The position numbers and the translations under genes were made by a program. A stretch of 64,000 nucleotides of DNA. It comes from Primulina eburnea (taxonomy: Eukaryota > Streptophyta > Magnoliopsida > Lamiales > Gesneriaceae). How positions within the stretch are numbered: position 1 is the stretch's first letter; each line of letters opens with the position of its first letter. Below the pieces are notes generated by a model. That model was not told where the DNA came from, made no database searches, and saw nothing but the letters and a program-made list of their open reading frames with translations. The stretch spans positions 62,001 through 126,000 of the forward strand of contig NW_027331299.1 in NCBI RefSeq assembly GCF_022965805.1, written 5' to 3'. Shown piece after piece: positions 1,878-64,000 of the stretch.

Positions 1878-4800
1878 ATAGAATCCCTCCCTTCTAGCCT
1901 AGGCAACCCAAAATAAAGTCATAGAATGTCAATCAAGTTCTAGCACCAAAGTTTCCAAAGACAACTTACGTGCACGTTACAACTTATGTGCAAGTTAGCC
2001 CTAAGTAATCTAATGAATCCCTCCCTTCTTTCCTAGGCAACCCAAAATAAACCAAAGAATGTCTATTAAGAATACAAACTATTTACAACTTCAGTTTGTC
2101 CATCCGTTTGAGGATGACAAGTAGTAGATTACAACTTTATTGTGCAAAGTTTAGCCCATAAAGTAATCCATAAATAGAATCCCTCCCCTTCTTAGTCCTA
2201 GGCAACCCCAAAATAAAGTCCATAGAAATGTCAATCCAAGTTCTTTTAAGAATAGCACGCAAAAGTGTTCCCAAAGTTCTATTGACAACTTCAGTTTGTC
2301 CATCTGTTTGAGGATGACAAGTAGTATATTACAACAATTATTGAGCAAAGTTTAGCCCATAAAGTAATCTAAAATAGAATCCCTCTCCTTCTTAGTTCTA
2401 GGCAACGCCAAAATAAAGTCCATAGAAATGTCAATCCAAGTTCCTTTTAAGAATAGCACGCAAAAGTATTCCCAAAGTTCTATTTACAACTTCAGTTTGT
2501 CCATCCGTTTGAGGATGACAAGTAGTAGATTACAACTTTATTGTGCAAAGTTTAGCCCATAAAGGAATCCATAAATAGAATCCCTCCCCTTCTTCGTCCT
2601 AAGCAACCCCAAAATAAAGTCCATAGAAATGTCAATTCAAGTTCTTTTAAGAATAGCACGCAAAAGTGTTCCCAAAGTTCTATTTACAACTTCAGTTTGT
2701 CCATCCGTTTGAGGATGACAAGTAGTAGATTACAACTTTATTGTGCAAAGTTTAGCCCATAAAGTAATCCATAAATAGAATCCCTCACCTTCTTAGTCTT
2801 AGGCAACCCCAAAATAAAGTCCATAGATATGTCAATCCAAGTTCTTTTAAGAATAGCACGCAAACGTGTTCTCAAAGTTCTATTTACAACTTCAGTTTGT
2901 CCATCCGATTGAGGATGACAAGTAGTAGATTACAACTTTATTGTGCAAAGTTTAGCCCATAAAAAAATCCATAAATAGAATCCCTCCCCTTCTTAGTCCT
3001 AGGCAACCCCAAAATAAAGTCAATAGAAATGTCAATCCAAGTTCTTTTAAGAATAGCACGCAAAAGTGTTCCCAAAGTTCTATTTAAAACTTTAGTTTGT
3101 CCATCCGTTTGAGGATGACAAGTAGTAGATTACAACTTTATTGTGCAAAGTTTAGCCCATAAAGTAATCCATAAATAGAATCCCTCCCCTTCTTAGTCCT
3201 AGCCAACCCCAAAATAAAGTCCATAGAAATGTCAATCCAAGTTCTTTTAAGAATAGCACGAAAAAGTGTTCCCAAAGTTCTATTCGCAACTTCAGTTTGT
3301 CCATCCGTTTGAGGATGACAAGTAGTAGATTACAACTTTATTGTGCAAAGTTTAGCCCATAAAGTAATCCATAAATAGAATCCCTCCCCTTCTTAGTCCT
3401 AGGCAACCCCAAAATAAATCCATAGAAATGTCAATCCAAGTTCTTTTAATAATAGCACGCAAAAGTGTTCCCAAAGTTCTATTTACAACTTCAGTTTGTC
3501 CATCCGTTTGAGGATGACAAGTAGTAGATTACAACTTTATTGTGCAAAGTTTAGCCCATAAAGTAATCCATAAATAGAATCCCTCCCCTTCTTAGTCCTA
3601 GGCAACCCCAAAATAAAGTCCATAGAAATGTCAATTCAAGTTCTTTTAAGAATAGCACGCAAAAGTGTTCCCAAAGTTCTATTTACAACTTCTGTTTGTC
3701 CATCCGTTTGAGGATGACAAGTAGTAGATTACAAATTTATTGTGCAAAGTTTAGTCCATAAAGTAATCCATAAATAGAACCCATCCCCTTCTTAGTCATA
3801 GGCAACACCAAAATAAAGTTCATAGAAATGTCAATCCAAGTTCTTTTAAGAATAGCACGCAAAAGTGTTCCCAAAGTTCTATTTACAACTTCAGTTTGTC
3901 CATCCGTTTGAGGATGACAAGTAGTAGATTACAACTTTATTGTGCAAAGTTTAGCCCATAAAGTAATCCATAAATAGAATCCCTCCCCTTCTTAGTCCTA
4001 GGCAACCCCAAAATAAGTCCATAGAAATGTCAATCCAAGTTCTTTTAAGAATAGCACGCAAATGTGTTCTCAAAGTTCTATTTGCAACTTCGGTTTGTCC
4101 ATCCGTTTGAGGATGACAAGTAGTAGATTACAACTTTATTGTGCAAAGTTTAGCCCATAAAGTAATCCATAAATAGAATCCCTCCCCTTCTTAGTCCTAG
4201 GCAACCCCAAAATAAAGTCCATAGAAATGTCAATCCAAGTTCTTTTAAGAATAGCACGCAAACGTGTTCTCAAAGTTCTATTTACAACTTCAGTTTGTCC
4301 ATCCGTTTGAGGATAACAAGTAGTAGATTACAACTTTATTGTGCAAAGTTTAGCCCATAAAGTAATCCATAAATAGAATCTCTCCCCTTCTTAGTCCTAG
4401 GCAACCCCAAAATAAAGTCCATAGAAATGTCAATCCAAGTTCTTTTAAGAATAGCACGCAAAAGTGTTCCCAAAGTTCTATGTACAACTTCAGTTTGTCC
4501 ATCCGTTTGAGGATGACAAGTAGTAGATTACAACTTTATTGTGCAAAGTTTAGCCCATAAAGTAATCCATAAATAGAATCCCTCCCCTTCTTAGTCCTAG
4601 GCAACCCCAAAATAAAGTCCATAGAAATGTCAATCCAAGTTCTTTTTAAGAATAGCACGCAAAAGTGTTCCCAAAGTTCTATTGACAACTTCAGTTTGTC
4701 CATCTGTTTGAGGATGACAAGTAGTATATTACAACAATATTGAGCAAAGTTTAGCCCATAAAGTAATCTAAAAATAGAATCCCTCCCCTTCTTAGTTCTA

Positions 4801-5867
4801 GGCAACGCCAAAATAAAGTCCATAGAAATGTCAATCCAAGTTCCTTTTAAGAATAGCACGCAAAAGTATTCCCAAAGTTCTATTTACAACTTCAGTTTGT
4901 CCATCCGTTTGAGGATGACAAGTAGTAGATTACAACTTTATTGTGCAAAGTTTAGCCCATAAAGTAATCCATAAATAGAATCCATCCCCTTCTTAGTCCT
5001 AGGCAACCCCAAAATAAAGTCCATAGAAATGTCAATCCAAGTTCTTTTAAGAATAGCACGCAAACGTGTTCTCAAAGTTCTATTTACAACTTCAGTTTGT
5101 CCATCCGTTTGAGGATGACAAGTAGTAGATTACAACTTTATTGTACAAAGTTTAGCCAATAAAGTAATCCATAAATAGAATCCCTCCCCTTCTTAGTCCT
5201 AGGCAACCCCAAAATAAAGTCCATAGAAATGTCAATTCAAGTTCTTTTAAGAATAGCACGCAAAAGTGTTCCCAAAGTTCTATTTACAACTTCTGTTTGT
5301 CCATCTGTTTGAGGATGACAAGTAGTAAATTACAACTTTATTGTGCAAAGTTTAGCCCATAAAGGAATCCATAAATAGAATCCCTCCCCTTCTTCGTCCT
5401 AAGCAACCCCAAAATAAAGTCCATAGAAATGTCAATTCAAGTTCTTTTAAGAATAGCACGCAAAAGTGTTCCCAAAGTTCTATTTACAACTTCAGTTTGT
5501 CCATCCGTTTGAGGATGACAAGTAGTAGATTACAACTTTATTGTGCAAAGTTTAGCCCATAAAGTAATCCATAAATAGAATCCCTCACCTTCTTAGTCTT
5601 AGGCAACCCCAAAATAAAGTCCATAGATATGTCAATCCAAGTTCTTTTAAGAATAGCACGCAAACGTGTTCTCAAAGTTCTATTTACAACTTCAGTTTGT
5701 CCATCCGATTGAGGATGACAAGTAGTAGATTACAACTTTATTGTGCAAAGTTTAGCCCATAAAAAAATCCATAAATAGAATCCCTCCCCTTCTTAGTCCT
5801 AGGCAACCCCAAAATAAAGTCCATAGAAATGTCAATCCAAGTTCTTTTAAGAATAGCACGCAAAAGT
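1878..5867 (-). repeat. Satellite array, part 1: ~20 copies of a 200-bp integrase-derived monomer
   Basis: The block ccatccgttt recurs at 2501, 2701, 2901, 3101 and 3301, giving a period of 200 bp; some monomers are 199 or 201 bp. The first two units (1878-2100) are degenerate and shortened. Read on the minus strand, one frame in each monomer encodes gypsy integrase pieces: [15 protein letters not shown], then a short link, then [19 protein letters not shown]. Because 200 is not a multiple of three, the frame cannot stay open from one unit to the next. Many repeats start with alternate variants (gcaaaagtgttccc or gcaaacgtgttctc). The array stops at the aaagt target site of element A and resumes at 13068. 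Confidence 0.95.
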
Positions 5868-6966
5868 TGTAAGGCCCGAGATTATATCACTTTAATCCGA
5901 GATTATTTAATTTACGAATTTTGGAATGAGGAATTAATTCCACGATTTTTGTAATTAAGTTTGATTGAAATTGAATTAAAAAGAGTTATTGGGGCCGAAT
6001 TGCAATTAGTGTAAAGTTGAGGGACTAAAAGGCAATTAAGGGAATTGAGTGGGACACTTGTCACCACCATATAACTTGATACTTATATCACAATCTCCAA
6101 TTTCACATTCCAGAGAAGGAAATGAGCGAGAAACTCCGTAGAAGTTTAAGTTTCAATTTTGCTTAGAAATTTGATTGTACAAGATTCGGTTATCAGATTT
6201 TGAATCCGGACATAGTACTGTACTCCTCTCGTCGACAGCTTCAACTGGACGTAAGTTTTATTGATTTCTGGTATCATTTGAAAAGATGATGTTGTAGGAA
6301 TTTGATATAATTCATATATGATGTTCTTGACATGTTAGACATCGTAGAATCGAAGTCAGATCAGAAAACGGATTGATTCTGGAATTGTTATGATTTTCTG
6401 ATTATATTGATTGAGAATTAAATAGATTTGGATTATAGACTGATTACAAATTGTATCGAATATGGGTTATGATTTGTAATTAATATCTGGTGATGTGGTA
6501 TTGACGGGGATACTGAGTTTGTACCGTTATGCCGATGATTTGAATTAAATCCAGGTTAATCAGTTTCAGTGTTGAATTGAGATTGGAATATTAATATTAG
6601 TATTCTCGATATGTCGTTTCAGATTTACAGAGACAGTCTTGAGTTCAGAACTGATATTTCTGCAGATCGAGACTACTAACGAAAGAAAGGTATAAATTAA
6701 TGTTGAGTTGGGATTGCACAACTCGAGGGAGGTTTGACTCGAGTTTCCCTAAATCACATACTTTACCTTATTGCATTGATATTTGCATTAAGTTGATTGA
6801 TGTACTTGCTCTCTTGATATTAGATGACAGGTATTAGACGTGTTATCTTGTGACAGAAGTGCCGGATAGTGGTGGTATCGCCACGGCACATTGCACGATG
6901 TCTCAAGATAGGATATTAGCAATAGAGTTACAGTTCATGACGGATAGGTCCGGACACTGGATGTTT

Positions 6967-7150
6967 GGTTATATCGAGTAATGGAATCTATTACGGAATT
7001 CGATATAGGAACACCATATTTGGTTATATCGAGTAAAGGGTATTGGAATTCTTCGATTACGGAATTCGATATAGGAATACCAGGGCCATGGTTATATCGA
7101 GTAATAGAAATTATGGTTCCATCCTTTACGGAATTCGATATAGGAATACC
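6967..7150 (+). repeat. Three tandem tatatcgag stem-loop units in the LTR of A
   Basis: Each ~60-bp unit starts ggttatatcgag and ends ttacggaattcgatatagg, so tatatcga at the left pairs with tcgatata at the right. The three units also create a short open frame with a repeated TEFDIG motif, which I regard as incidental. The same block occurs in the other LTR of A (12126-12309) and in the LTRs of D and E. Confidence 0.8.
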
Positions 7151-7255
7151 ACATCTGGAAACCGGGATCCCTAGACTAGGATTGAGTCTAGTCTAAAACG
7201 TAGAGTCACTAGCCTGAGTGACAGCTAGATTGAATGGTATTGAGTAATACTGATT

Positions 7256-7475
7256 TATGTTCCTGATATTGGTACATGTCTAGAATAGGAATTATTCTTG
7301 AGATTGATTATGTTCCTGATATTTGGTACATGTTTAGAATAGGAATTATTCTTGATATTGAATTATGTTCCTGATATTTGGTACATGTCTAGAATAGGAA
7401 TTATTCTTGATATTGAATTATGTTCCTGATTAGGGTACATGTTTAGAATATGATTTATTCTTGTAATTGATTTAT
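7256..7475 (+). repeat. Four tandem 53-55-bp units in the LTR of A
   Basis: The block gttcctgat recurs at 7259, 7312, 7367 and 7422, each followed by a ggtacatgt...agaata...attattcttg pattern. The other LTR carries the same array near 12415-12634. The element D LTR lacks this expansion and is shorter there. Confidence 0.85.
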
Positions 7476-7575
7476 GTCATGATGTTGATATAGGATATGA
7501 TTGTCTGTTATATGCTTTTATATTGTTTATATGATTGCATGTATACATGATTTATACTGGGATATTTGTATCTCA

Positions 7576-7623
7576 CCGGAGTTATCCGGCTGTTGTCTTG
7601 TCTGTATGTGTGCATGGCAACAG
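7576..7623 (+). other. Conserved paired stem-loops near the end of the A LTR
   Basis: ccgg-agttat-ccgg (7576-7589) is followed directly by ctgttgtc (7590-7597), a 18-nt loop with tgtatgtgtg, and ggcaacag (7616-7623). The outer six pairs are Watson-Crick, then one T-G, then C-G. The same structure with different pairs occurs in C, D, E and F. Confidence 0.65.
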
Positions 7624-7913
7624 GTGGGCTAGGATCAGGGTCAAGAAGAGAACGAGGCTGGACTAGATAGCGTGGAGGTCCGGACTTTGAAGCAACTTAG
7701 GGTTCAGCACTGACTTATAGTTGAACCTAGTCGGATTATTGTAGATCATACAATAATTATACGTTATGTTTAATATGTAATTTGAATTTAATTACATTAT
7801 GTTTCCGCTGTGTAATTTAAAAAGAAAAATTTTTAGACCCTGTTTATTATGAATGATTAAATATTCCTAAAGACGATTAAGGAATGGATTAGCGTCCGGG
7901 TCCCCACAACAGG

Positions 7914-7925
7914 TGGTATCAGAGC
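7914..7925 (+). promoter_or_regulatory. Primer binding site of element A (initiator Met-tRNA)
   Basis: The sequence tggtatcagagc lies five bases after the 5' LTR end and is complementary to the 3' end of plant initiator methionine tRNA. It primes minus-strand DNA synthesis in most plant Ty3/gypsy elements. Confidence 0.9.
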
Positions 7926-8235
7926 TGTAGGTCCTTGAACTGTAGGTTTCTTAGCACTGAGATAGAAAAGAGGGAGCGGGGTAGATTGAGTTTTCTTTCC
8001 TGCTTTTGATTGCTAGCATGTGATATAGTATTATGTTGATTTACATTGAGTATGCTAGCATGCCAGCATGGTTTATTGCATTTAAATGTATGTTACCTGA
8101 ATATCTGAATTGATTTGGTAATATATCTGATTTGAAAATGAATCAGAACCAACCCATTTTGATCAGAAGGTAAGCTGATCAGAAAGGGATTGAGATTGAT
8201 TATCTCTTGTGATTACTGATTCCTGTGATCATCAG

Positions 8236-10925
8236 ATATACCTCGTAGAATAATTTCAGAAAGGGGTAGTACTTCGTCTGATCAGATAGATGTATCAGAA
8301 ATTCAGATGGAAATTAAATTGAAAGAGTTTCAGTTATTTCAGCCGCCGAAGACTTCTGAAGATTGGGAGAACTGATTTGAGGTCATAGAAATACTGTTCG
8401 ATTTACTTAATTGTACAGATGAACAGAGAGGTAAACTGGTATTCCCTCAGTTATAAGAATCTGCCAGAAGTTGGTGGATTACAACCAAAGGAGTACTAGA
8501 ACTAAGAGGTTCCCGAGGATTTCAGGGAGCTAGATCATCTGGATATGGTGATCAAGGAACAGACCCAGGACACACTTGATGATATAGTGGCAGGTATTGT
8601 TCCTCTATGATTATGATGCATATGTATTGATATATACTAATGCAATCATTATGATTATCCTTGATTGGGTGGCACGGATATATGCTTTACCTGTTGGTTC
8701 AGTATCTACTGTGGTATTGGTTCTTTACCTTTTTGGGAAAAGAATTGATATGAGTGATATTCTGTGATATATCATATACTGCAGTAAGTTGAGAATGAGA
8801 TTGAATTAGACTAGCTTGTACTTGTAGTGTCTGATGATGACTGCCTGATTGATATTGATATATCGAACAAGTACAGATTTATTATAGAGTCTTGCCAGGA
8901 GATGGTAAGATTCGGACCTGAAATGGCCAAGGAATGAATGATATACAGTAAGGGATTTAGATTTTGAATTCCTTGATATCTGTATTGTTCATGATTCGAT
9001 GATTATCGAAAGGAATGGAATAATTCCTTATGTATTCCGTTGATGACTGAAGTTGAGTCTATCAGGGATTGATTTACTAATAGCAGGAAGTTTGCTATAG
9101 TCTTTCAGATGAGATTTCAGGTTGTCCTGTATCCGGAAGAGTGATTTCAGCCCTGATTTGATTCCAGGTATTGGTTTCATTTTAGAAGTTCTTATAGACT
9201 GATACTGATTGAACTGAAGGAATTGAGATATCAGTTGAAAGAATTATTGTCTAAGAGTTAGAGTTACATTTGAATATATGTTTCTCTGGAAAATACTTCA
9301 GTTCCAATGATGGATTGATAAATCATGTGTTCAGCAATATTCTGAAGACATTATGCTCGTTGTATCTATGACATTTTGATATATTCGCAGCATATGATTG
9401 AATTGAATATTCTGGGAACTGAAATTGTGGTATACAGAATTGTTCGGATATGAATCTCGATTGTGACAGATTGTATTCAGAGTCTATGATATCTGAAGAT
9501 AGTATACTGACTGAATTATAGTCCTGTTGAGACAGTGATCAGTGACTGAGAATGACATTGAATATGGTAGAATTTCCGAGATGTCAGAAATGTCAGAGAT
9601 TGTGTCTTATACAGTTCAGTCGAGTTAGAACTGGTTTTGAAGATTAAAGCAGTTCAGAAGTTTGATCAGACTGTTCAGAACTTAATTTTGATAGTTAGAA
9701 CAGTGTGTCAGAGCCGATTACCAGGTAGGTAATGTTTTATTTTATATTATTAGCTGATTTGTTTGTGTCAGATATTCGGATTTGAATGGCTGGTATTGTC
9801 AGATGCCCACAGTAGTAGATTCAGTACTGTTCTGGTAACAGGAAATGGGTGATAATTCGAATGGACAGTTTTGATATAAATAGATGGAATCAGTTATGTC
9901 AGAATTTATATTGAAATGTCTAAATCGTTGACTGATGAAGACAGGAAGATAGGAACCAGGAGATTGGTTATATCGATTATTGATTCTTAAATAGAAATGG
10001 GAGTACATTTCTATGGATCTGGTGATGGAATCACCGAAAGTTTGCCAACATTGTATCAGTAGGTGGTTATGATTGAACGATTGTTCAAATCTGCCTATGT
10101 CATATGGTACAGGATGACGTACTAATATGACCAGACGACTGAAAGGTATGTCAGAAACGGGGTTCAGATTGTATTAGATGCCAAAGTTGATTTTATCAGA
10201 CTATGATATTCGTTTGATATTATACTTTTGGCTGAGTGTACAGCATGATTGTTCATCTATGATTTATAGATGGAAGGATAGTCAGAGTGAACTATCCTGA
10301 TACTGGAGGATATCCAGGAAATGTAGTGCTTGATTATAGCACTAGTTGACATGATTTATTGTCGCTTGTGGATTATTGTACAATAATAGCTATTAGATGA
10401 GTATCGAAATAGCTCTAGTCAAGGTATTGTACAGTGAGAACTGCTATTTTCCTTCGTATGGGAATGATATTGCAGTAATGCTTGAGAGCAGATTTGATAA
10501 GATCGGAGATCTGATAAAGAAAATGAAACTGATTCCGAAGAAATGAGGATAGCTCAGAATACATAAACTAATAAGCCAATGTCGGACGATGACTGTTGGT
10601 ATTTAAAACCGAAGGTTGAATATATCCTTGGATATGATTAATAGATGAGGATATTGATTTGCTTTAGAATTGTTGATTGGTATATACGGATGTAGTATAG
10701 CCAATAGTGGTGATTGATTCTATCACAAGTTATTCCGAATAGGATTAGCATATTATACTCCTTGAATGATTATTCCTGTCTGGAATCAGAGATCCGTAAA
10801 AGAAAAATATTTCAGAACGAAGATTATTCTGTTGTTGATAACACAGTAAGGGTGTCAGTAGGTCAATGAGACTATCTGAAAGACAGAATCTGATATGAGA
10901 TTGAAATTTCAGATTGATTCATTGA
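8236..10925 (+). pseudogene. Decayed and shortened gag-pol of element A
   Basis: No reading frame longer than about 70 codons survives, but nucleotide similarity to the gag-pol of element D runs in order. The gag start is at 8236. The linker and protease region (gatgatatagtggcaggt) is near 8576, with the protease C-terminal part at 8880-8935. The pre-RT segment is at 9150-9260. The integrase region is around 10280-10420, including decayed counterparts of the HPQTDGQ and NNSYQTSIE segments. The interior is 3.1 kb against roughly 4.8 kb in C and D, so sizeable stretches of RT and RNase H are deleted or unrecognisable. It encodes nothing functional. Assignment is by visible alignment with D; exact ends are approximate. 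Confidence 0.8.
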
Positions 10926-11011
10926 GATAAAATTTTCTGATTTACCTCTTGTATACGTTTCGTGTTGATATCTGACTTGATTACCTGTGATTTCGAGGAC
11001 GAAATCGTATC

Positions 11012-11026
11012 TTAGAGGGGGAGAAT
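11012..11026 (+). promoter_or_regulatory. Polypurine tract of element A
   Basis: The purine run agagggggagaa directly precedes the 3' LTR and marks the start of plus-strand DNA synthesis. Upstream lies the cgaggacgaa block shared with elements C and D. Confidence 0.85.
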
Positions 11027-13067
11027 TGTAAGGCCCGAGATTATATCACTTTAATCCGAGATTATTTAATTTACGAATTTTGGAATGAGGAATTAATTCC
11101 ACGATTTTTGTAATTAAGTTGGATTGAAATTGAATTAAAAAGAGTTATTGGGGCCGAATTGCAATTAGTGTAAAGTTAAGGGACTAAAAGGCAATTAAGG
11201 GAATTGAGTGGGACACTTGTCACCACCATATAACTTGATACTTATATCACAATCTCCAATTTCACATTCCAGAGAAGGAAATGAGCGAGAAACTCCGTAG
11301 AAGTTTAAGTTTCAATTTTGCTTAGAAATTTGATTGTACAAGATTCGGTTATCAGATTTTGAATCCGGACATAGTACTGTACTCCTCTCGTCGACAGCTT
11401 CAACTGGACGTAAGTTTTATTGATTTCTGGTATCATTTGAAAAGATGATGTTGTAGGAATTTGATATAATTCATATATGATGTTCTTGACATGTTAGACA
11501 TCGTAGAATCGAAGTCAGATCAGAAAACGGATTGATTCTGGAATTGTTATGATTTTCTGATTATATTGATTGAGAATTAAATAGATTTGGATTATAGACT
11601 GATTACAAATTGTATCGAATATGGGTTATGATTTGTAATTAATATCTGGTGATGTGGTATTGACGGGGATACTGAGTTTGTACCGTTATGCCGATGATTT
11701 GAATTAAATCCAGGTTAATCAGTTTCAGTGTTGAATTGAGATTGGAATATTAATATTAGTATTCTCGATATGTCGTTTCAGATTTACAGAGACAGTCTTG
11801 AGTTCAGAACTGATATTTCTGCAGATCGAGACTACTAACGAAAGAAAGGTATAAATTAATGTTGAGTTGGGATTGCACAACTCGAGGGAGGTTTGACTCG
11901 AGTTTCCCTAAATCACATACTTTACCTTATTGCATTGATATTTGCATTAAGTTGATTGATGTACTTGCTCTCTTGATATTAGATGACAGGTATTAGACGT
12001 GTTATCTTGTGACAGAAGTGCCGGATAGTGGTGGTATCGCCACGGCACATTGCACGATGTCTCAAGATAGGATATTAGCAATAGAGTTACAGTTCATGAC
12101 AGATAGGTCAGGACACTGGATGTTTGGTTATATCGAGTAATGGAATCTATTACGGAATTCGATATAGGAACACCATATTTGGTTATATCGAGTAAAGGGT
12201 ATTGGAATTCTTCGATTACGGAATTCGATATAGGAATACCAGGGCCATGGTTATATCGAGTAATAGAAATTATGGTTCCATCCTTTACGGAATTCGATAT
12301 AGGAATACCACATCTGGAAACCGGGATCCCTAGACTAGGATTGAGTCTAGTCTAAAACGTAGAGTCACTAGCCTGAGTGACAGCTAGATTGAATGGTATT
12401 GAGTAATACTGATTTATGTTCCTGATATTGGTACATGTCTAGAATAGGAATTATTCTTGAGATTGATTATGTTCCTGATATTTGGTACATGTTTAGAATA
12501 GGAATTATTCTTGATATTGAATTATGTTCCTGATATTTGGTACATGTCTAGAATAGGAATTATTCTTGATATTGAATTATGTTCCTGATTAGGGTACATG
12601 TTTAGAATATGATTTATTCTTGTAATTGATTTATGTCATGATGTTGATATAGGATATGATTGTCTGTTATATGCTTTTATATTGTTTATATGATTGCATG
12701 TATACATGATTTATACTGGGATATTTGTATCTCACCGGAGTTATCCGGCTGTTGTCTTGTCTGTATGTGTGCATGGCAACAGGTGGGCTAGGATCAGGGT
12801 CAAGAAGAGAACGAGGCTGGACTAGATAGCGTGGAGGTCCGGACTTTGAAGCAACTTAGGGTTCAGCACTGACTTATAGTTGAACCTAGTCGGATTATTG
12901 TAGATCATACAATAATTATACGTTATGTTTAATATGTAATTTGAATTTAATTACATTATGTTTCCGCTGTGTAATTTAAAAAGAAAAATTTTTAGACCCT
13001 ATTTATTATGAATGATTAAATATTCCTAAAGACGATTAAGGAATGGATTAGCGTCCGGGTCCCCACA
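11027..13067 (+). repeat. 3' LTR of element A
   Basis: It is 2,041 bp, the same length as the 5' LTR. About five substitutions were seen by eye, for example tttgattg/ttggattg near 11118, gttgaggg/gttaaggg near 11176, and ccctgttt/ccctattt near 13005. It ends gtccccaca and is followed by the TSD aaagt. Confidence 0.93.
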
Positions 13068-19434: not shown

Positions 19435-19437
19435 CAG

Positions 19438-41007: not shown

Positions 41008-41022
41008 TTAGGGGGGGAGAAA
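41008..41022 (+). promoter_or_regulatory. Polypurine tract of element D
   Basis: The run taggggggggagaaa-like block (seven G residues flanked by A) abuts the 3' LTR. The 80 bp from the pol stop to here contain the tttcgaggacgaaatcg block shared with A. Confidence 0.87.
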
Positions 41023-47800: not shown

Positions 47801-49134
47801 ACAAGTAGTAGATTACAACTTTATTGTGCAAAGTTTAGCCCATAAAGTAATCCAAAAATAGAATCCCTCCCCTTCTTAGAACTAGGCAACCGCAAAATAA
47901 AGTCCATAGAAATGTCAATCCAAGTTCTTTTAAGAATAGCACGCAAACGTGTTCTCAAAGTTCTATTTACAACTTCAGTTTGTCCATCCGTTTGAGGATG
48001 ACAAGTAGTAGATTACAACTTTATTGTGCAAAGTTTAGCCCATAAAGTAATCCATAAATAGAATCCCTCACCTTCTTAGTCTTAGGCAACCCCAAAATAA
48101 AGTCCATAGATATGTCAATCCAAGTTCTTTTAAGAATAGCACGCAAACGTGTTCTCAAAGTTCTATTTACAACTTCACTTTGTCCATCCGTTTGAGGATG
48201 ACAAGTAGTAGATTACAACTTTATTGTGCAAAGTTTAGCCCATAAAGTAATCCATAAATAGAATCCCTCCCCTTCTTAGTCCTAGGCAACCCCAAAATAA
48301 GTCCATAGAAATGTCAATCCAAGTTCTTTTAAGAATAGCACGCAAATGTGTTCTCAAAGTTCTATTTACAACTTCGGTTTGTCCATCCGTTTGAGGATGA
48401 CAAGTAGTAGATTACAACTTTATTGTGCAAAGTTTAGCCCATAAAGTAATCCATAAATAGAATCCCTCCCCTTCTTAGTCCTAGGCAACCCCAAAATAAA
48501 GTCCATAGAAATGTCAATCCAAGTTCTTTTAAGAATAGCACGCAAACGTGTTCTCAAAGTTCTATTTACAACTTCAGTTTGTCCATCCGTTTGAGGATAA
48601 CAAGTAGTAGATTACAACTTTATTGTGCAAAGTTTAGCCCATAAAGTAATCCATAAATAGAATCTCTCCCCTTCTTAGTCCTAGGCAACCCCAAAATAAA
48701 GTCCATAGAAATGTCAATCCAAGTTCTTTTAAGAATAGCACGCAAAAGTGTTCCCAAAGTTCTATGTAAATCTTCAGTTTGTCCATCCGTTTGAGGATGA
48801 CAAGTAGTAGATTACAACTTTATTGTGCAAAGTTTAGCCCATAAAGTAATCCATAAATAGAATCCCTCCCCTTCTTAGTCCTAGGCAACCCCAAAATAAA
48901 GTCCATAGAAATGTCAATCCAAGTTCTTTTTAAGAATAGCACGCAAAAGTGTTCCCAAAGTTCTATTGACAACTTCAGTTTGTCCATCCGTTTGAGGATG
49001 ACAAGTAGTTTATTACAACAATATTGAGCAAAGTTTAGCCCATAAAGTAATCCAAAAATAGAATCCCTCCCCTTCTTAGTCCTAGGCAACCCCAAAATAA
49101 ACTCCATAGAAATGTCAATCCAAGTTCCTTTTAA

Positions 49135-50873: not shown

Positions 50874-50934
50874 ATTCTTAGTCCTATGCAACCCCAAAAT
50901 AAATCCATAGAAATGTCAATCCAAGTTCTTTTAA

Positions 50935-52673: not shown

Positions 52674-55425
52674 CTTCTTAGTCCTAGGCAACCCCAAAAT
52701 AAGTCCATAGAAATGTCAATCCAAGTTCTTTTAAGAATAGCACGCAAATGTGTTCTCAAAGTTCTATTTACAACTTCGGTTTGTCCATCCGTTTGAGGAT
52801 GACAAGTAGTAGATTACAACTTTATTGTGCAAAGTTTAGCCCATAAAGTAATCCATAAATAGAATCCCTCCCCTTCTTAGTCCTAGGCAACCCCAAAATA
52901 AAGTCCATAGAAATGTCAATCCAAGTTCTTTTAAGAATAGCACGCAAACGTGTTCTCAAAGTTCTATTTACAACTTCAGTTTGTCCATCCGTTTGAGGAT
53001 AACAAGTAGTAGATTACAACTTTATTGTGCAAAGTTTAGCCCATAAAGTAATCCATAAATAGAATCTCTCCCCTTCTTAGTCCTAGGCAACCCCAAAATA
53101 AAGTCCATAGAAATGTCAATCCAAGTTCTTTTAAGAATAGCACGCAAAAGTGTTCCCAAAGTTCTATGTACATCTTCAGTTTGTCCATCCGTTAGAGGAT
53201 GACAAGTAGTAGATTACAACTTTATTGTGCAAAGTTTAGCCCATAAAGTAATCCATAAATAGAATCCCTCCCCTTCTTAGTCCTAGGCAACCCCAAAATA
53301 AAGTCCATAGAAATGTCAATCCAAGTTCTTTTTAAGAATAGCACGCAAAAGTGTTCCCAAAGTTCTATTGACAACTTCAGTTTGTCCATCCGTTTGAGGA
53401 TGACAAGTAGTATATTACAACAATATTGAGCAAAGTTTAGCCCATAAAGTAATCCAAAAATAGAATCCATCCCCTTCTTAGTCCTAGGCAACCCCAAAAT
53501 AAACTCCACAGAAATGTCAATCCAAGTTCCTTTTAAGAATAGCACGCAAAAGTGTTCCCAAAGTTCTATTTACAACTTCAGTTTGTCCATCCGTTTGAGG
53601 ATGACAAGTAGTAGATTACAACTTTATTGTGCAAAGTTTAGCCCATAAAGTAATCCATAAATAGAATCCATCCCCTTCGTAGTCCTAGGCAACCCCAAAA
53701 TAAAGTCCATAGAAATGTCAATCCAAGTTCTTTTAAGAATAGCACGCAAAAGTGTTCCCAAAGTTCTATTTACAATTTCAGTTTGTCCATCCGTTTGAGG
53801 ATGACAAGTAGTAGATTACAACTTTATTGTGCAAAGTTTAGCCCATAAAGTAATCCATAAATAGAATCCCTCCCCTTCTTAGTCCTAGGCAACCCCAAAA
53901 TAAACTCCATAGAAATGTCAATCCAAGTTCCTTTTAAGAATAGCACGCAAAAGTGTTCCCAAAGTTCTATTTACAACTTCAGTTTGTCCATCCGTTTGAG
54001 GATGACAAGTAGTAGATTACAACTTTATTGTGCAAAGTTTAGCCCATAAAGTAATCCATAAATAGAATCCATCCCCTTCGTAGTCCTAGGCAACCCCAAA
54101 ATAAAGTCCATAGAAATATCAATCCAAGTTCTTTTAAGAATAGCACGCAAAAGTGTTCCCAAAGTTCTATTTACAATTTCAGTTTGTCCATCCGTTTGAG
54201 GATGACAAGTAGTAGATTACAACTTTATTGTGCAAAGTTTAGCCCATAAAGTAATCCATAAATAGAATCCCTCCCCTTCTTAGTCCTAGGCAACCCCAAA
54301 ATAAAGTCCATAGAAATTTCAATCCAAGTTCTTTTAAGAATAGCACGCAAACGTGTTCTCAAAATTCTATTTACAACTTCAGTTTGTCCATCCGTTTGAG
54401 GATGACAAGTAGTAGATTACAACTTTATTGTGCAAAGCTTAGCCCATAAAAAAATCCATAAATAGAATCCCTCCCCTTCTTAGTCCTATGCAACCCCAAA
54501 ATAAATTCTATAGAAATGTCAATCCAAGTTCTTTTAAGAATAGCACGCAAAAGTGTTCCCAAAGTTCTATTTACAACTTCAGTTTGTCCATCCGTTTGAG
54601 GATTACAAGTAGTATATTACAACAATATTGAGCAAAGTTTAGCCCATAAAGTAATCCAAAAATAGAATCCCTCCCCTTCTTAGTCCTAGGCAACCCCAAA
54701 ATAAAGTCCATAGAAATGTCAATCCAAGTTCCTTTTAAGAATAGCACGCAAAAGTGTTCCCAAAGTTCTATTTACAACTTCAGTTTGTCCATCCGTTTGA
54801 GGATGACAAGTAGTAGATTACAACTTTATTGTGCAAAGTTTAGCCCATAAAGTAATCCATAAATAGAATCCCTCCCCTTCTTAGTCCTAGGCAACCCCAA
54901 AATAAAGTCCATAGAAATGTCAATTCAAGTTCTTTTAAGAATAGCACGCAAAAGTGTTCCCAAAGTACTATTTACAACTTCAGTTTGTCCATCCGTTTGA
55001 GGATGACAAGTAGTAGATTACAACTTTATTGTGCAAAGTTTAGCCCCTTATGTAATCCATAAATAGAATCCCTCCCCTTCTTAGTCCTAGGCAACTCCAA
55101 AATAAAGTCCATAGAAATGTCAATCCAAGTTCTTTTAAGAATAGCACGCAAAAGTGTTTCCAAAGTTCTATGTACAACTTCAGTTTGTCCATCCGTTTAA
55201 GGATGACAAGTAGTAGATTACAACTTTATTGTGCAAAGTTTAGCCCATAAAGTAATCCATAAATAGAATCCCTCCCCTTCTTAGTCCTAGGCAACCCCAA
55301 AATAAAGTCCATAGAAATGTCAATCCAAGTTCCTTTTAAGAATAGCACGCAAAAGTGTTCCCAAAGTTCTATTTACAACTTCAGTTTGTCCATCCGTTTG
55401 AGGATGACAAGTAGTAGATTACAAC

Positions 55426-57552
55426 TGTGGGGACCCGGACGCTAATTCATTCCTTAATCGTCTTTAGGACTAATTAATCATTCATAATAAACAGGGTCTA
55501 AAAATTTTTCTTTTTAAATTACACAGCGGAAACATAATGTAATTAAATTCAAATTACATATTAAACATAACGTACAATTATTGTATGATCTACAATAATC
55601 CGACTAGGTTCAACTATAAGTCAGTGCTGAAACCCTAAGTTGCTTCAAAGTCCGGACCTCCACGCTATCTAGTCCAGCCTCGTTCTCTTCTTGACCCTGA
55701 TCCTAGCCCACCTGTTGCCATGCACACATACAGACAAGACAACAGCCGGATAACTCCGGTGAGATACAAATATCCCAGTATAAATCATGTATACATGCAA
55801 TCATATAAATCATATAAGAGCATATAACAAAAGTCACCTCCTATATCACCTCATGATATAAATCAATAACAAGAATAAATCATATTCTACACATGTACCC
55901 TAATCAGGGACCTAATTCAATATCTAGAATAATTCCTATTCTAAACATGTACCAAATATCAGGAACATAATCAATATCAAGAATAATTCCTATTCTAAAT
56001 ATGTACCAATATCAGGAAACATACAAGGGCATGAACCATATTCAGGAACATAAATCAATATTAATCAATACCATAAACTACAACTGTCACTCAATCCAGT
56101 GACTCTACTTTTTAGACTAGACTCAATCCTAGTCTAGGGATCCCGATTTCCAGATGTGGTATTCCTATATCGAATTCCGTAAAGGATGGAACCATAATCT
56201 CTATTACTCGATATAACCATGGCCCTGGTATTCCTATATCGAATTCCGTAACAGAAGAATTCCAATACCCTTTACTCGATATAACCAAATATGGTGTTCC
56301 TATATCGAATTCCGTAATGAATTCCATTACTCGATATAACCATACATCCAGTGTCCTGACCTAACCGTCAAGGACTGTAGCTCTAACGCTAATATCCTAT
56401 CTTGAGACATCGTGCAATGTGCCGTGGCGATACCACCACTATCCGGCACTTCTGTCACAAGATACTAGCCTAATACCTGTCATCTAATATCAAGAGAGCA
56501 AGTACATCAATCAACTTAATGCAAATATCAATGCAATAAGGTAAAGTATGTGATTTAGGGAAACTCGAGTCAAACCTCCCTCGAGTTGTGCAATCCCAAC
56601 TCAACATTAATTTATACCTTTATCTTCTCGCTCAGAAGAATAAGAAATCCCGACTCTACCTCGGTCCAGTCCCAATCTGGTAATCACAATAATGAATAAT
56701 CTCATATCAATATACCACTCAAATCGATAACAATCTGATAAATCTCGATTTAATTCAAAATCAACGGCATAACGGTACAATCTCCATATTCCCGTCAATA
56801 CCATATCACCAGATAACAGTTACAATCCATAACCCATATCCAATACAATTTATAATCAATCCATAATCCAAATCTGTCCGGTATCAACTGATTATAATCC
56901 TAAAATCATAACAATTTCATAATCAGTCTATTTCTTAATCTGACTTCGATTCTATGATGTCTACTATGTCAAGAACAACATATATGAGTTCCATTCAATT
57001 CTGACAATAGCATAATTTCAAATCATGTCAAAACGTAGCAAAACTTACGTCCAGTTGTAGCCTACGTTGCTAGGAACTCGGTACCGAAGTCGGATTTCAA
57101 ATCAGACGGACGGATTGATCGTAAAATCGAATTGAATGGAAATTCCCTCGGACCTCTCGTTTCTTGTTTCAGGGAAATGAATTGCATGTGTGTATATATA
57201 TATATATACCTCGCACATGCATTAAGCCAACTGGCTTAATCTTTCCACCCCACGTCTCGCGCTCGGGCGGAAATAAAGTTCCGCCCGGGCGCGAAACTCT
57301 CGGCCCTGACGTTCTGTTCACTCGCGCTCGGGCGGACATAAGTTACCGCCCGGGCGCGAGGCGCTCGGGTTTCTTGCTTCACTCAATGGCGCTCGGGCGG
57401 TCCAATACTTCCGCCCGGGCGCAAACCCTTCGGCCCAAATTTGTGTATTTCATACACTTTGTCCCGTGTGGTCTCGGAATGGCCCGACTATTATCATCTT
57501 AATTCATACTCAACAAACTCAGATTAATCTAATTAAAATCTCGGGCATTACA
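55426..57552 (-). repeat. Complete, chimeric 3' LTR of element E
   Basis: 2,127 bp. From 55426 to about 56620 it matches the LTR of element A best, including gagttgtgcaatcccaac and the repeated ttcctgat units. From about 56690 to 57552 it is the same as the D-type LTR in the other two blocks of E. The intervening ~70 bp match neither well. It contains the tatatcgag stem-loop units (56142-56344), the GC-rich inverted repeats (~57257-57424), and a TATA run (57194-57210). Confidence 0.85.
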
Positions 57553-57568
57553 TTTCTCCCCCCCTAAG
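57553..57568 (-). promoter_or_regulatory. Polypurine tract of element E, first copy
   Basis: tttctccccccctaag on the plus strand is the reverse complement of the D-type polypurine tract and abuts the LTR. An identical copy is at 60097-60112. Confidence 0.85.
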
Positions 57569-57646
57569 ATACGATTTCGTCCTCGAAATCACAAGCATTT
57601 ATTCGTATCAACAAGGAGTATATATACAAACTGTATACAATTTACA

Positions 57647-58249
57647 TCAGTGAAACAATGCTGGGAATTCTTGTCTCATGTCAGATTCAGTTTCCCACGT
57701 GGCTTCTTCAACCCCATGACGAGTCCATTGAACTTTCACAAGAGGAATCGTCTTTGTTCTGAGCTGTTTTTCTTTACGATCGATAATCCGAATCGGTTTC
57801 TCGACATAACTCAATGTCTCATCCAGCTCAGTCTCGTCTGGTTGAATAACATGGGAATCATCAGGGAGATATTTCCGCAGCATTGATACATGAAAAACAT
57901 CATGTATTCCAGATAATGAAGGCGGTAATGCTAGTCGATAGGCACGATCTCCTATCTTTTCTAGAATTTCATAAGGACCTACATATCTTGGAGACAATTT
58001 CCCTTTCTTGCCGAATCTGACAACACCTCTGAAAGGAGAAATCTTCAGGAATACTCGGTCTCCTACGTCAAATACCAACGGTCGTCGTCTGAGGTTGGCA
58101 TATTTGGCTTGTCGGTCCTGAGCTGCCTTCATTTTCTTCTGAATCAACTTTACTTTTTCATTCATATCTCCGATCATATCCGGTCCAGTCTCAGGAACTT
58201 CAGAGATATCATCCCAATACAACGGGGATCTGCATTTCTTTCCGTACAA
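57647..58249 (-). pseudogene. Integrase C-terminus and chromodomain-like end, copy 1 (element E)
   Basis: 200 codons on the minus strand, almost identical to the end of the element D pol. It has the GPY motif at 91-93 and the chromodomain-like part at ~152-195 (IRIIDRK...WTRHG...EATWE). The catalytic core is absent. Upstream the coding sequence continues only to about 58270, where it is joined directly to LTR sequence (agggtctaaattttt). The nominal start codon is simply the first Met-like codon left. It is a fragment without catalytic ability; if expressed, only a possible chromatin-binding piece would be made. Confidence 0.9.
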
Positions 58250-58270
58250 CGCTTCAAAAGGAGCTATCAG

Positions 58271-60096
58271 AAACCAGGGTCTAAATTTTTTTTTTTAAAA
58301 TGCGGAAGGTAGTGACATCAAAACATATATACATATCAGTATATAAAATACAAATCCTGTATCACAAACATTTATTCAAACTAGGGTTTAAAACTAAAGT
58401 CAAGTGTTCAACCCTATCTCTAGTCCAAGTCCGGAGCCTCCACGCTAATCACGATCTCTCTCATCTCCTGGACCCTGATCCTGTCCCACCTGTTGTCAAG
58501 TACACATACAGACAAGACAACAGCCGGATAAACCGGTGAGAATATACTCCCAGTATAAATCAATGAAACATGCAATTATATAAACAATATAAAGCATGTA
58601 ATCAGGTAACATGAATATGTATCATAATCCGAAACATAAACAATACTCGTAGCTACATCATTTAAGAATAGACTCAATCCTAGTCTAGGGATCCCGGTTT
58701 CCAGATGTGGTATTCCTATATCGAATTCCGTAAAGGATGGAACCATAATTTCTATTACTCGATATAACCAGTGCCCCGGTATTCCTATATCGAATTCCGT
58801 AATAGAAGAATTCCAACCCCTTTACTCGATATAACCAAATATGGTGTTCCTATATCGAATTCCGTAATGGATTCCATTACTCGATATAACCATACATCCA
58901 GTGTCCTGACCTATCCGTCATGGACTGTAGTTCTATCGCTAATATCCTATCTTGAGACATCGTGCAATGTGCCGTGGCGATACCACCACTATCCGGCACT
59001 TCTGTCACAAGATAACTAGCCTAATACCTGTCATCTAATTCCAAGAGGACAAGTACATTAATCAAGGTAATGCAAATATCCATGCAATAAAATAAAGTAT
59101 GTGATTTAGGGAAACCCAAGTCTAAACCGACTTAAGTCCATCTCCCAATACCACATTGACTTATACCTTCCGTTGCAGTCTCGGTTTCCTGCTCAGTCGA
59201 AGTCCTGAATTCACAGTCTGTCTGGTAATGACAATATGAATAATCTCATATCAATATACCACTCAAATCGATAACAATCTGATAAATCTCGATTTAATTC
59301 AAAATCAACGGCATAACGGTACAATCTCCATATTCCCGTCAATACCATATCACCAGATAACAGTTACAATCCATAACCCATATCCAATACAATTTATAAT
59401 CAATCCATAATCCAAATCTGTCCGGTATCAACTGATTATAATCCTAAAATCATAACAATTTCATAATCAGTCTATTTCTTAATCTGACTTCGATTCTATG
59501 ATGTCTACTATGTCAAGAACAACATATATGAGTTCCATTCAATTCTGACAATAGCATAATTTCAAATCATGTCAAAACGTAGCAAAACTTACGTCCAGTT
59601 GTAGCCTACGTTGCTAGGAACTCGGTACCGAAGTCGGATTTCAAATCAGACGGACGGATTGATCGTAAAATCGAATTGAATGGAAATTCCCTCGGACCTC
59701 TCGTTTCTTGTTTCAGGGAAATGAATTGCATGTGTGTATATATATATATATACCTCGCACATGCATTAAGCCAACTGGCTTAATCTTTCCACCCCACGTC
59801 TCGCGCTCGGGCGGAAATAAAGTTCCGCCCGGGCGCGAAACTCTCGGCCCTGACGTTCTGTTCACTCGCGCTCGGGCGGACATAAGTTACCGCCCGGGCG
59901 CGAGGCGCTCGGGTTTCTTGCTTCACTCAATGGCGCTCGGGCGGTCCAATACTTCCGCCCGGGCGCAAACCCTTCGGCCCAAATTTGTGTATTTCATACA
60001 CTTTGTCCCGTGTGGTCTCGGAATGGCCCGACTATTATCATCTTAATTCATACTCAACAAACTCAGATTAATCTAATTAAAATCTCGGGCATTACA
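58271..60096 (-). repeat. Middle LTR of element E (D-type, lacking its last ~75 bp)
   Basis: 1,826 bp ending internally at the T-run after aaaccagggtct, fused to the integrase fragment. Contains the conserved stem-loop (~58490-58525), tatatcgag units (58703-58894), GC-rich inverted repeats (~59801-59968) and a TATA run near 59738-59754. Confidence 0.88.
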
Positions 60097-60190
60097 TTTC
60101 TCCCCCCCTAAGATACGATTTCGTCCTCGAAATCACAAGCATTTATTCGTATCAACAAGGAGTATATATACAAACTGTATACAATTTACA

Positions 60191-60793
60191 TCAGTGAAAC
60201 AATGCTGGGAATTCTTGTCTCATGTCAGATTCAGTTTCCCACGTGGCTTCTTCAACCCCATGACGAGTCCATTGAACTTTCACAAGAGGAATCGTCTTTG
60301 TTCTGAGCTGTTTTTCTTTACGATCGATAATCCGAATCGGTTTCTCGACATAACTCAATGTCTCATCCAGCTCAGTCTCGTCTGGTTGAATAACATGGGA
60401 ATCATCAGGGAGATATTTCCGCAGCATTGATACATGAAAAACATCATGTATTCCAGATAATGAAGGCGGTAATGCTAGTCGATAGGCACGATCTCCTATC
60501 TTTTCTAGAATTTCATAAGGACCTACATATCTTGGAGACAATTTCCCTTTCTTGCCGAATCTGACAACACCTCTGAAAGGAGAAATCTTCAGGAATACTC
60601 GGTCTCCTACGTCAAATACCAACGGTCGTCGTCTGAGGTTGGCATATTTGGCTTGTCGGTCCTGAGCTGCCTTCATTTTCTTCTGAATCAACTTTACTTT
60701 TTCATTCATATCTCCGATCATATCCGGTCCAGTCTCAGGAACTTCAGAGATATCATCCCAATACAACGGGGATCTGCATTTCTTTCCGTACAA
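60191..60793 (-). pseudogene. Integrase C-terminus and chromodomain-like end, copy 2 (element E)
   Basis: Same 200-codon frame as 57647-58249, exactly 2,544 bp further, with no difference that I can see in the protein. It is joined to LTR sequence at the same deletion junction (~60814). Identity of junction and sequence shows that the deletion came first and the tandem duplication second. Confidence 0.9.
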
Positions 60794-60814
60794 CGCTTCA
60801 AAAGGAGCTATCAG

Positions 60815-62640
60815 AAACCAGGGTCTAAATTTTTTTTTTTAAAATGCGGAAGGTAGTGACATCAAAACATATATACATATCAGTATATAAAATACAAATC
60901 CTGTATCACAAACATTTATTCAAACTAGGGTTTAAAACTAAAGTCAAGTGTTCAACCCTATCTCTAGTCCAAGTCCGGAGCCTCCACGCTAATCACGATC
61001 TCTCTCATCTCCTGGACCCTGATCCTGTCCCACCTGTTGTCAAGTACACATACAGACAAGACAACAGCCGGATAAACCGGTGAGAATATACTCCCAGTAT
61101 AAATCAATGAAACATGCAATTATATAAACAATATAAAGCATGTAATCAGGTAACATGAATATGTATCATAATCCGAAACATAAACAATACTCGTAGCTAC
61201 ATCATTTAAGAATAGACTCAATCCTAGTCTAGGGATCCCGGTTTCCAGATGTGGTATTCCTATATCGAATTCCGTAAAGGATGGAACCATAATTTCTATT
61301 ACTCGATATAACCAGTGCCCCGGTATTCCTATATCGAATTCCGTAATAGAAGAATTCCAACCCCTTTACTCGATATAACCAAATATGGTGTTCCTATATC
61401 GAATTCCGTAATGGATTCCATTACTCGATATAACCATACATCCAGTGTCCTGACCTATCCGTCATGGACTGTAGTTCTATCGCTAATATCCTATCTTGAG
61501 ACATCGTGCAATGTGCCGTGGCGATACCACCACTATCCGGCACTTCTGTCACAAGATAACTAGCCTAATACCTGTCATCTAATTCCAAGAGGACAAGTAC
61601 ATTAATCAAGGTAATGCAAATATCCATGCAATAAAATAAAGTATGTGATTTAGGGAAACCCAAGTCTAAACCGACTTAAGTCCATCTCCCAATACCACAT
61701 TGACTTATACCTTCCGTTGCAGTCTCGGTTTCCTGCTCAGTCGAAGTCCTGAATTCACAGTCTGTCTGGTAATGACAATATGAATAATCTCATATCAATA
61801 TACCACTCAAATCGATAACAATCTGATAAATCTCGATTTAATTCAAAATCAACGGCATAACGGTACAATCTCCATATTCCCGTCAATACCATATCACCAG
61901 ATAACAGTTACAATCCATAACCCATATCCAATACAATTTATAATCAATCCATAATCCAAATCTGTCCGGTATCAACTGATTATAATCCTAAAATCATAAC
62001 AATTTCATAATCAGTCTATTTCTTAATCTGACTTCGATTCTATGATGTCTACTATGTCAAGAACAACATATATGAGTTCCATTCAATTCTGACAATAGCA
62101 TAATTTCAAATCATGTCAAAACGTAGCAAAACTTACGTCCAGTTGTAGCCTACGTTGCTAGGAACTCGGTACCGAAGTCGGATTTCAAATCAGACGGACG
62201 GATTGATCGTAAAATCGAATTGAATGGAAATTCCCTCGGACCTCTCGTTTCTTGTTTCAGGGAAATGAATTGCATGTGTGTATATATATATATATACCTC
62301 GCACATGCATTAAGCCAACTGGCTTAATCTTTCCACCCCACGTCTCGCGCTCGGGCGGAAATAAAGTTCCGCCCGGGCGCGAAACTCTCGGCCCTGACGT
62401 TCTGTTCACTCGCGCTCGGGCGGACATAAGTTACCGCCCGGGCGCGAGGCGCTCGGGTTTCTTGCTTCACTCAATGGCGCTCGGGCGGTCCAATACTTCC
62501 GCCCGGGCGCAAACCCTTCGGCCCAAATTTGTGTATTTCATACACTTTGTCCCGTGTGGTCTCGGAATGGCCCGACTATTATCATCTTAATTCATACTCA
62601 ACAAACTCAGATTAATCTAATTAAAATCTCGGGCATTACA
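60815..62640 (-). repeat. Outer 5' LTR of element E (D-type, lacking its last ~75 bp)
   Basis: Second copy of 58271-60096. Its outer end (gggcattaca at 62640) is followed by the TSD acaac and satellite, so it is the original 5' end of the inserted element. Confidence 0.9.
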
Positions 62641-64000
62641 ACAACTTTATTGTGCAAAGTTTAGCCCATAAAGTAATCCATAAATAGAATCCCTCCCCTT
62701 CTTAGTCCTAGGCAACCCCAAAATAAAGTCCATAGAAATGTCAATTCAAGTTCTTTTAAGAATAGCACGCAAAAGTGTTCCCAAAGTACTATTTACAACT
62801 TCAGTTTGTCCATCCGTTTGAGGATGACAAGTAGTAGATTACAACTTTATTGTGCAAAGTTTAGCCCCTTATGTAATCCATAAATAGAATCCCTCCCCTT
62901 CTTAGTCCTAGGCAACTCCAAAATAAAGTCCATAGAAATGTCAATCCAAGTTCTTTTAAGAATAGCACGCAAAAGTGTTCCCAAAGTTCTATGTACAACT
63001 TCAGTTTGTCCATCCGTTTGAGGATGACAAGTAGTAGATTACAAATTTATTGTGCAAAGTTTAGCCCATAAAGTAATCCATAAATAGAATCCCTCCCCTT
63101 CTTAGTCCTAGACAACCCCAAAATAAAGTCCATAGAAATGTCAATCCAAGTTCTTTTTAAGAATAGCACGCAAAAGTGTTCCCAAAGTTCTATTGACAAC
63201 TTCAGTTTGTCCATCCGTTTGAGGATGACAAGTAGTATATTACAACAATATTGAGCAAAGTTTAGCCCATAAAGTAATCCAAAAATAGAATCCCTCCCCT
63301 TCTTAGTTCAAGGCAACCCCAAAATAAAGTCCATAGAAATGTCAATCCAAGTTCCTTTTAAGAATAGCACGCAAAAGTGTTCCCAAAGTTCTATTTACAA
63401 CTTCAGTTTGTCCATCCGTTTGAGGATGACAAGTAGTAGATTACAACTTTATTGTGCAAAGTTTAGCCCATAAAGTAATCCATAAATAGAATCCATCCCC
63501 TTCTTAGTCCTAGGCAACCCCAAAATAAAGTCCATAGAAATGTCAATCCAAGTTCTTTTAAGAATAGCACGCAAACGTGTTCTCAAAGTTCTATTTACAA
63601 CTTCAGTTTGTCCATCCGTTTGAGAATGACAAGTAGTAGATTACAACTTTATTGTGCAAAGTTTAGCCCATAAAGTAATCCATAAATAGAATCCCTCCCC
63701 TTCTTAGTCCTAGGCAACCCCAAAATAAAGTCCATAGAAATGTCAATCCAAGTTCTTTTAAGAATAGCACGCAAACGTGTTCACAAAGTTCTATTTACAA
63801 CTTCAGTTTGTCCATCCGTTTGAGGTTGACAAGCAGTAGATTACAACTTTATTGTGCAAAGTTTAGCCCATAAAAAATCCATAAATAGAATCCCTCCCCT
63901 TCTTAGTCCTAGGCAACCCCAAAATAAAGTCCATAGAAATGTCAATCTAAGTTCTTTTAAGAATAGCACGCAAAAGTGTTCCCAAAGTTCTATTTACAAC
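62641..64000 (-). repeat. Satellite array, part 4: ~7 copies, running off the window
   Basis: Begins with the acaac duplicate and continues in the same phase. Its first units repeat variants at 54,830-55,230 (aaagtactattt, gcccctta-tgtaatcc, gcaactccaa), so a segment on either side of element E is also duplicated. The array has not ended at 64000. Confidence 0.95.

Follow-up and report, generated by a model that had tools for sequence, protein, structure and literature searches.

Two pieces of a CRM-type integrase gene as the probable source of a 200 bp satellite in Primulina eburnea

A satellite repeat with a 200 bp monomer was analysed in a 64,000-nucleotide window of the 812 Mb Primulina eburnea assembly (GCF_022965805.1). 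The window corresponds to positions 62001–126000 of contig NW_027331299.1 (hereafter C769; coordinates without a contig name are those of the window). The monomer very probably derives from integrase-coding sequence of a Ty3/gypsy retrotransposon of CRM type by the path proposed below, a reading that was reached by sequence comparison and to which we assign a probability of about 0.86. It consists of two non-adjacent pieces of integrase fused in permuted order, piece B (WIDISMDF...DSI) and piece A (WKTLWAKL...AILK).

The array was delineated with Tandem Repeats Finder (TRF), which reported a period of 200 bp with multiples of 399 and 401 bp and 95–96% matches at 2079–5867, 13066–18144, 44814–55426 and 62641–64000, and with blastn, for which one real monomer was used as the query against the window. 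The latter search returned 107 rows, comprising 101 full units and six partial or damaged units, one of which is a 152 bp unit at 1977–2128 with 72% identity. The full units were 199 bp (n = 14), 200 bp (n = 67) or 201 bp (n = 20) in length and included 76 distinct sequences with a mean pairwise identity of 0.960. The four satellite blocks and the query are listed below.

1872–5867, minus strand: satellite block 1 (TRF, blastn); its initial ∼260 bp are rich in single-base deletions (error-rich join).
13068–18144, minus strand: satellite block 2 (TRF, blastn).
44819–55425, minus strand: satellite block 3 (TRF, blastn); 53 full units, with the first one adjoining insertion B.
62641–64000, minus strand: satellite block 4 (TRF, blastn); extends beyond the end of the window.
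46014–46213, minus strand: example monomer (blastn query); integrase piece A, piece B and then the beginning of the next piece A.

The blocks sum to 21,040 bp, which bears out the ∼105 copies, period of 200 bp and 21 kb total given in a first-pass annotation of this DNA. That annotation had placed the satellite in the 62 kb interval 1878–64000; the interval does hold the tandem array, but the remaining 41 kb are later insertions of retroelement sequence. Block 3 alone provides 10.6 kb of uninterrupted head-to-tail units. Higher-order repeats were sought in the window array from identity by lag, which was nearly flat (0.945–0.973) with weak peaks only. With long head-to-tail arrays of similar units that are free of coding constraint (see below), the repeat is satellite DNA.

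On the minus strand, the 15-residue motif of piece A was present exactly in 58 of the 101 full units and with at most two mismatches in 99; the 18-residue motif of piece B was present exactly in 24 and with at most three mismatches in 85. Nearly every copy thus encodes integrase motifs, as had been stated at first pass. None of 10,000 mononucleotide shuffles (200 for each of 50 monomers) came within five mismatches of the piece A motif. A protein search yielded 528 relatives, the best 120 of which were compared, and among these the closest were Primulina polyproteins: by residue count a P. huaijiensis protein stood at the top (48/49), with three P. eburnea proteins (47, 46 and 46/49) and one other protein (46/49) below it. 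The P. eburnea protein P0245 agrees with piece A at 27 of 28 residues and with piece B at 20 of 22. Piece A begins 92 residues after piece B in 117 of the 120 relatives and ∼36 residues after it in the satellite, from which it follows that ∼55 residues were lost between the pieces. In P0245 this stretch runs from FVVVDRF to FLSYF and includes VSDRD, which carries a catalytic Asp. The earlier description of the monomer as built from the integrase core is therefore correct as to the source of both pieces, which match real integrases, and needs amendment in that the pieces are not contiguous, stand in permuted order and are separated by the deletion.

Two sets of candidate sources were rejected. 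The one integrase compared from the retroelements in the window matches the two pieces at 61 and 64%, and the window elements are accordingly not the source of the satellite; the first genomic integrase loci scored (L001–L008, eight of 150) match piece A at just 44–57%. As a separate observation, an integrase region of the same type occurs twice in tandem in annotated proteins of Senna tora (P0237) and Paspalum notatum (P0238), 341 and ∼239 residues apart, respectively, so that such duplications may have arisen repeatedly in plants.

A DNA copy of the parent family lies inside the array to the left of the window.

C769:26488–42433, strand not stated: CRM-like LTR (long terminal repeat) element within the array, with a nested element at 29376–38643.

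This element contains satellite-like stretches at 41000–41066 (85% identity) and 41275–41369 (80%) with the missing middle in between, and thus carries pieces A and B singly and not in tandem. Its 914 bp 5′ LTR runs from TGATG at 26488 to TATCA at 27401, which are CRM-type ends. The sequence TGGTATCAGAG at C769:27404, two bases past this LTR, occupies the position of a primer-binding site and is taken by us to fit one for tRNA-Met. The leader (5′ untranslated region; UTR) has an A-run near 27592–27609, the purine tract AAGAAGGGGAGGA precedes the TGATG of the 3′ LTR, and the reading frame stays open to C769:42282 (L046:8282), ∼390 nt into the 3′ LTR, which starts at 41889. Such LTR ends, a tRNA-Met site, an A-run, a polypurine tract and a frame extension are features of CRM elements, and the A-run and the extension of the frame into the LTR are mainly traits of CRM group A (PMC3059260). 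From these structural marks the parent family is assigned as CRM-like, that is, to the centromeric retrotransposon clade, with the marks of group A; the Ty3/gypsy origin proposed at first pass is thereby retained and narrowed to a lineage that had not been named. A Pfam search of the 460-residue C-terminal part for a chromodomain (PF00385) gave none at E values up to 10, in agreement with group A, whose members lack a type II chromodomain. The 3′ LTR ends early at 545 bp with its end missing; no target-site duplication (TSD) is visible, and monomer position 167 on one side of the element is followed by position 168 on the other. The shared part of the LTRs differs by K = 0.0131 over 541 sites, corresponding to ∼0.5–0.9 million years, so that the array around the element is probably older than this.

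Selection before and after the origin of the satellite was compared using the 101 monomers and 150 coding bases. Against the CRM-like element the monomers showed a mean of 29.8 differences, 23.6 of which were at third codon positions; the proportions of synonymous and nonsynonymous differences were pS = 0.665 and pN = 0.057 (pN/pS = 0.086), and a ratio this low did not occur in any of 500 neutral simulations. This silent-site excess indicates that the ancestor of the satellite was a functional integrase of a long-separated CRM subfamily. Between monomers pN/pS was 1.72, which indicates no protein-level constraint since the sequence became a satellite. On this evidence a working, long-diverged integrase became non-coding satellite DNA, and the large silent-site distance marks the monomer as a relic of an old CRM subfamily. 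It might instead be supposed that a 63-residue frame is still under selection, the array encoding peptides or representing a domesticated integrase gene. Although 51 of the 101 monomers are free of stops across their first 62 codons and the protein pieces look conserved, the other 50 contain stops within these codons, the reading found in most units lacks the central part of the core and terminates in a stop, the conservation predates the satellite and the between-monomer ratio is 1.72 (1.02 in a coarser count over some of the monomers); a coding role is thus most improbable.

The two joins of the monomer were compared with the element. Piece B of the element starts ..GTGAACCTTGGGTTGAT.. and its piece A ends ..AAGAAGAACTTAAAG.., while the satellite reads ..AAAAGAACTTGGATTGAC.. 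at the A/B join; at the second join the satellite reads ..TCTATTTATGGATTACTTTATGGGC.. where the element has ..TCTATATTTGTT.. and ..AGTTATTTCTGGAAAACACTGTGGGC... Both joins fall on 5–6 nt of shared sequence, GAAC(C)TT and TATTT, which are present in the CRM-like element, as expected after illegitimate recombination or template switching. Measured on the element, an undeleted unit would be 365 bp long and the deletion 161 bp, predicting a unit of 204 bp compared with the observed 199–201 bp.

One unit retains part of the middle. At C769:61346–61553, to the left of the window, the integrase homology passes from piece A into the middle (166 of 216 positions aligned identically, with 11 gaps); over 80 bp of the middle, identity to the CRM-like element is 77.5% (E = 3e-10 in the 325 kb searched). 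Weaker similarity at the protein level continues to ∼61637. A Tekay-like fragment starts there, and the array picks up again within piece B at window positions 1867–1872. The stretch C769:61346–61640 fits an undeleted unit of ∼365 bp, which suggests that duplication preceded deletion. Further units of this kind were sought by DNA comparison with the element in the same 325 kb and none was found, and a protein search for array units whose middle is intact returned none besides the CRM-like copy and Tekay-like elements.

From these data the following path is proposed. A segment of ∼365 bp (piece B, middle, piece A) in a working CRM element would have been duplicated in tandem by recombination at GAAC(C)TT, and a deletion of ∼160 bp at TATTT would then have taken out most of the middle. 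The resulting 200 bp form may have spread through unequal exchange or replication. Thereafter it evolved as non-coding sequence, its units were kept similar, and it gathered insertions, one of them a CRM-like element whose integrase belongs to the same family.

Several observations weigh against this derivation. A Pfam search with two 63-residue monomer readings gave no match, so that the integrase assignment depends on phmmer and pairwise comparisons. The sequence read, 127 kb on C769 and 70 kb on C13, contained a single CRM-like copy. Synonymous sites between the satellite and this only CRM-like DNA copy are near saturation (dS ∼1.6), which means that the subfamily directly ancestral to the satellite was not found. 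Just one unit was seen to retain part of the middle, and it lies in error-rich sequence beside a Tekay-like fragment; its far part aligns poorly and it was missed by the protein search for such units.

The array in the window is split by three insertions.

5868–13067, plus strand: insertion A, LTR element; LTRs at ∼5868–7908 and ∼11027–13067; TSD AAAGT in the satellite.
18145–44818, no strand assigned: insertion B, a nested cluster of LTR elements within a small outer LTR element; TSD ACTTT.
55426–62640, minus strand: insertion C, LTR-element sequence with an internal tandem duplication of 2,544 bp; TSD ACAAC.

Each is flanked by a perfect 5 bp TSD of satellite sequence, and the mean identity from block to block (0.956–0.960) is like that inside the blocks (0.952–0.962). 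The four blocks are therefore one array that was split later, and the insertions are younger than the array. The LTRs of insertion A show six differences over 2,045 aligned sites (K = 0.0029) and those of the outer element of insertion B give K = 0.0057 over a 350 bp part; with LTR substitution rates of 1.3e-8 and 7e-9 these values correspond to ages of ∼0.1–0.4 million years. The same relations bear on the suggestion that the tandem units belong to the interior of a retrotransposon, like those in the 3′ UTRs of Tat/Ogre elements, and move with their element rather than forming an independent satellite. Plant satellites often arise from repeats internal to retroelements (PMC7004042), but block 3 is uninterrupted and without element sequence, the elements sit in the array with TSDs inside monomers, the CRM-like copy carries each piece once, and the unit is coding and its parent family bears CRM rather than Tat marks. 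We regard such an element-internal origin as quite improbable and retain the derivation of an independent satellite from CRM integrase sequence.

Within published systems, the closest parallels are CRM1TR and CRM4TR of maize, tandem repeats derived wholly from LTR plus UTR sequence of CRM-clade retrotransposons, which are located at the centromere or pericentromere and for which illegitimate recombination at short matches has been proposed (PMC3648361). The Primulina repeat shares with them CRM-derived tandem units in islands split by LTR elements. In contrast to these LTR plus UTR units, its unit lies wholly in integrase coding sequence: the CRM4TR monomer matches a segment of ∼1370 nt, whereas two integrase-coding pieces make up the 200 bp here, and CRM1TR and CRM4TR are up to 97–98% identical to living parents (PMC3648361), whereas the Primulina parent is far off at silent sites. 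A 250 bp centromeric repeat of wheat and rye is likewise related to CRM-type coding sequence, but to gag of cereba (53% amino-acid similarity as cited) and not to integrase (Cheng and Murata 2003, as cited in PMC3648361 and PMC9659126). The satellites derived from Ogre/Tat 3′ UTRs are also born of Ty3/gypsy elements; they arose from pre-existing 3′ UTR tandem repeats, whereas the Primulina satellite stems from coding sequence and its extant relative is non-tandem (PMC7004042). Transposon coding sequence has similarly turned into satellite in PROsat and HinfI (open reading frame ORF2 of long interspersed nuclear elements, LINEs), CficCl-61-40 (CACTA Tnp2) and rye E3900 (gag), which involve other element classes or genes (PMC9659126). 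That 2022 review names LTR, UTR, gag, LINE ORF2 and CACTA transposase as satellite sources, and the word 'integrase' is absent from its main text. The centromeric gag–pol repeats Ss68, Ss166 and Ss262 of Saccharum spontaneum appear as retrotransposon-type repeats beside a satellite and not as a short tandem unit built from integrase, the similarity in Ss262 extending over just ∼136 bp (PMC5278356). In the open-access literature no integrase-derived satellite was found by title or abstract, and nothing relevant was found on satellites of Primulina or Gesneriaceae. As judged from that literature, CRM-derived repeats are known from LTR/UTR or gag and an integrase-coding source appears to be new; the integrase coding core, besides LTR, UTR or gag, can seed a satellite. 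The origin of satellites, above all of centromeric ones, is an old question and its traces are often lost; in Primulina they remain readable as the silent-site excess, the breakpoints on short matches, the unit with part of the middle and the element of the parent family inserted in the array.

Beyond the window the array was followed on both sides: its left end is at C769:11951 and it extends, with insertions, to at least C769:136000 (C769:47001–52000 was read only in part). Arrays were read directly on C769 and C13, with satellite making up 59.7 kb of the 127 kb read on C769 and 22.7 kb of the 70 kb sampled on C13. Genome-wide, 40 of 3,780 first-look candidates were scored, and their matches all lie at C13:12.65–12.96 Mb or on nine other contigs; the repeat is thus found elsewhere as tandem arrays and not as full elements only. 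A comparison of 421 monomers from five contigs, covering part of the loci, gave 252 distinct sequences and mean identities between contigs of 0.94–0.98; identical monomers are common to C13 and C769, and those of C88 are the most diverse (0.928 among themselves).

This diversity bears on whether the array is an assembly artefact of collapsed or chimeric reads. The contig measures a round 200 kb, the stretch C769:61.3–64.1 kb is error-rich and the array orientation flips at a fold-back at C769:16884 (L042:2884/2885; ..GGACAAACTGAAG|ACTTCAGTTTGTCC..), which may represent a true inversion or a chimeric junction. An artefact is nevertheless hardly credible given the 252 distinct monomers from five contigs and the TSDs and 0.3–0.6% LTR divergence of insertions A and B. 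Many single-base deletions relative to neighbouring monomers, at 1840–2130 and at L040:9340–9640, suggest unpolished sequence around a contig join.

The first-pass annotation had also noted that the monomer length is in the range of centromeric satellites. This is just suggestive, and the sole centromere-related evidence is the one CRM-like element in the array. Two readings of the location were weighed. With about even odds, the repeat is a local pericentromeric array on one chromosome, comprising C13 and its associated contigs, and without a role in the centromere. The 40 scored candidates match only in the C13 interval or on the nine other contigs, identical monomers occur on C13 and C769, and the insertions characterized in the window are not CRM-like; against this, a CRM-like element does lie in the array, and scoring of 40 of the 3,780 candidates leaves room for other chromosomes. 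This reading is compatible with the proposed origin and denies the centromeric one alone. Somewhat less probably, the array may be the centromeric repeat that binds CENH3 on P. eburnea chromosomes, be it on some or on all of them. An element with the structural marks of group A is inserted in it, every group A element tested in PMC3059260 was centromeric, the monomer is 200 bp long and the arrays are long and similar; on the other side, the CRM-like copy is single and the chromosome distribution comes from the 40 scored candidates only. It is a tentative and rather unlikely extension that the integrase gene of a centromere-targeting CRM element supplied the present centromeric satellite while CRM elements keep inserting there, a closed loop in which the gene of the integrating enzyme would have become its landing pad.

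Some minor features accompany the insertions and array ends. The inner elements of insertion B encode Ty3/gypsy proteins with strong matches to SH3_Tf2-1 and weak matches, below the curated Pfam cut-offs, to rve and a chromodomain; we take these proteins to be Tekay-like from their motifs. The outer element (18145–44818) looks like a very small LTR element, with an LTR of ∼400 bp and a tiny interior, and hosts a nest of 26 kb. In insertion C, the 2,544 bp tandem repeat (56110–62640) is 97.9% identical and contains an LTR-like part and a 200-residue integrase C-terminal frame, and is another retroelement fragment turned tandem repeat. The left end of the array (C769:11951; L041:7951) begins at the piece B junction motif GAACTTGG. 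A 10 kb stretch of C13, which includes 100 N, contains composite units at 12.960–12.967 Mb (L045), in which monomer positions 1–149 are joined to 82–200 (∼270 bp) or 1–125 to 48–200.

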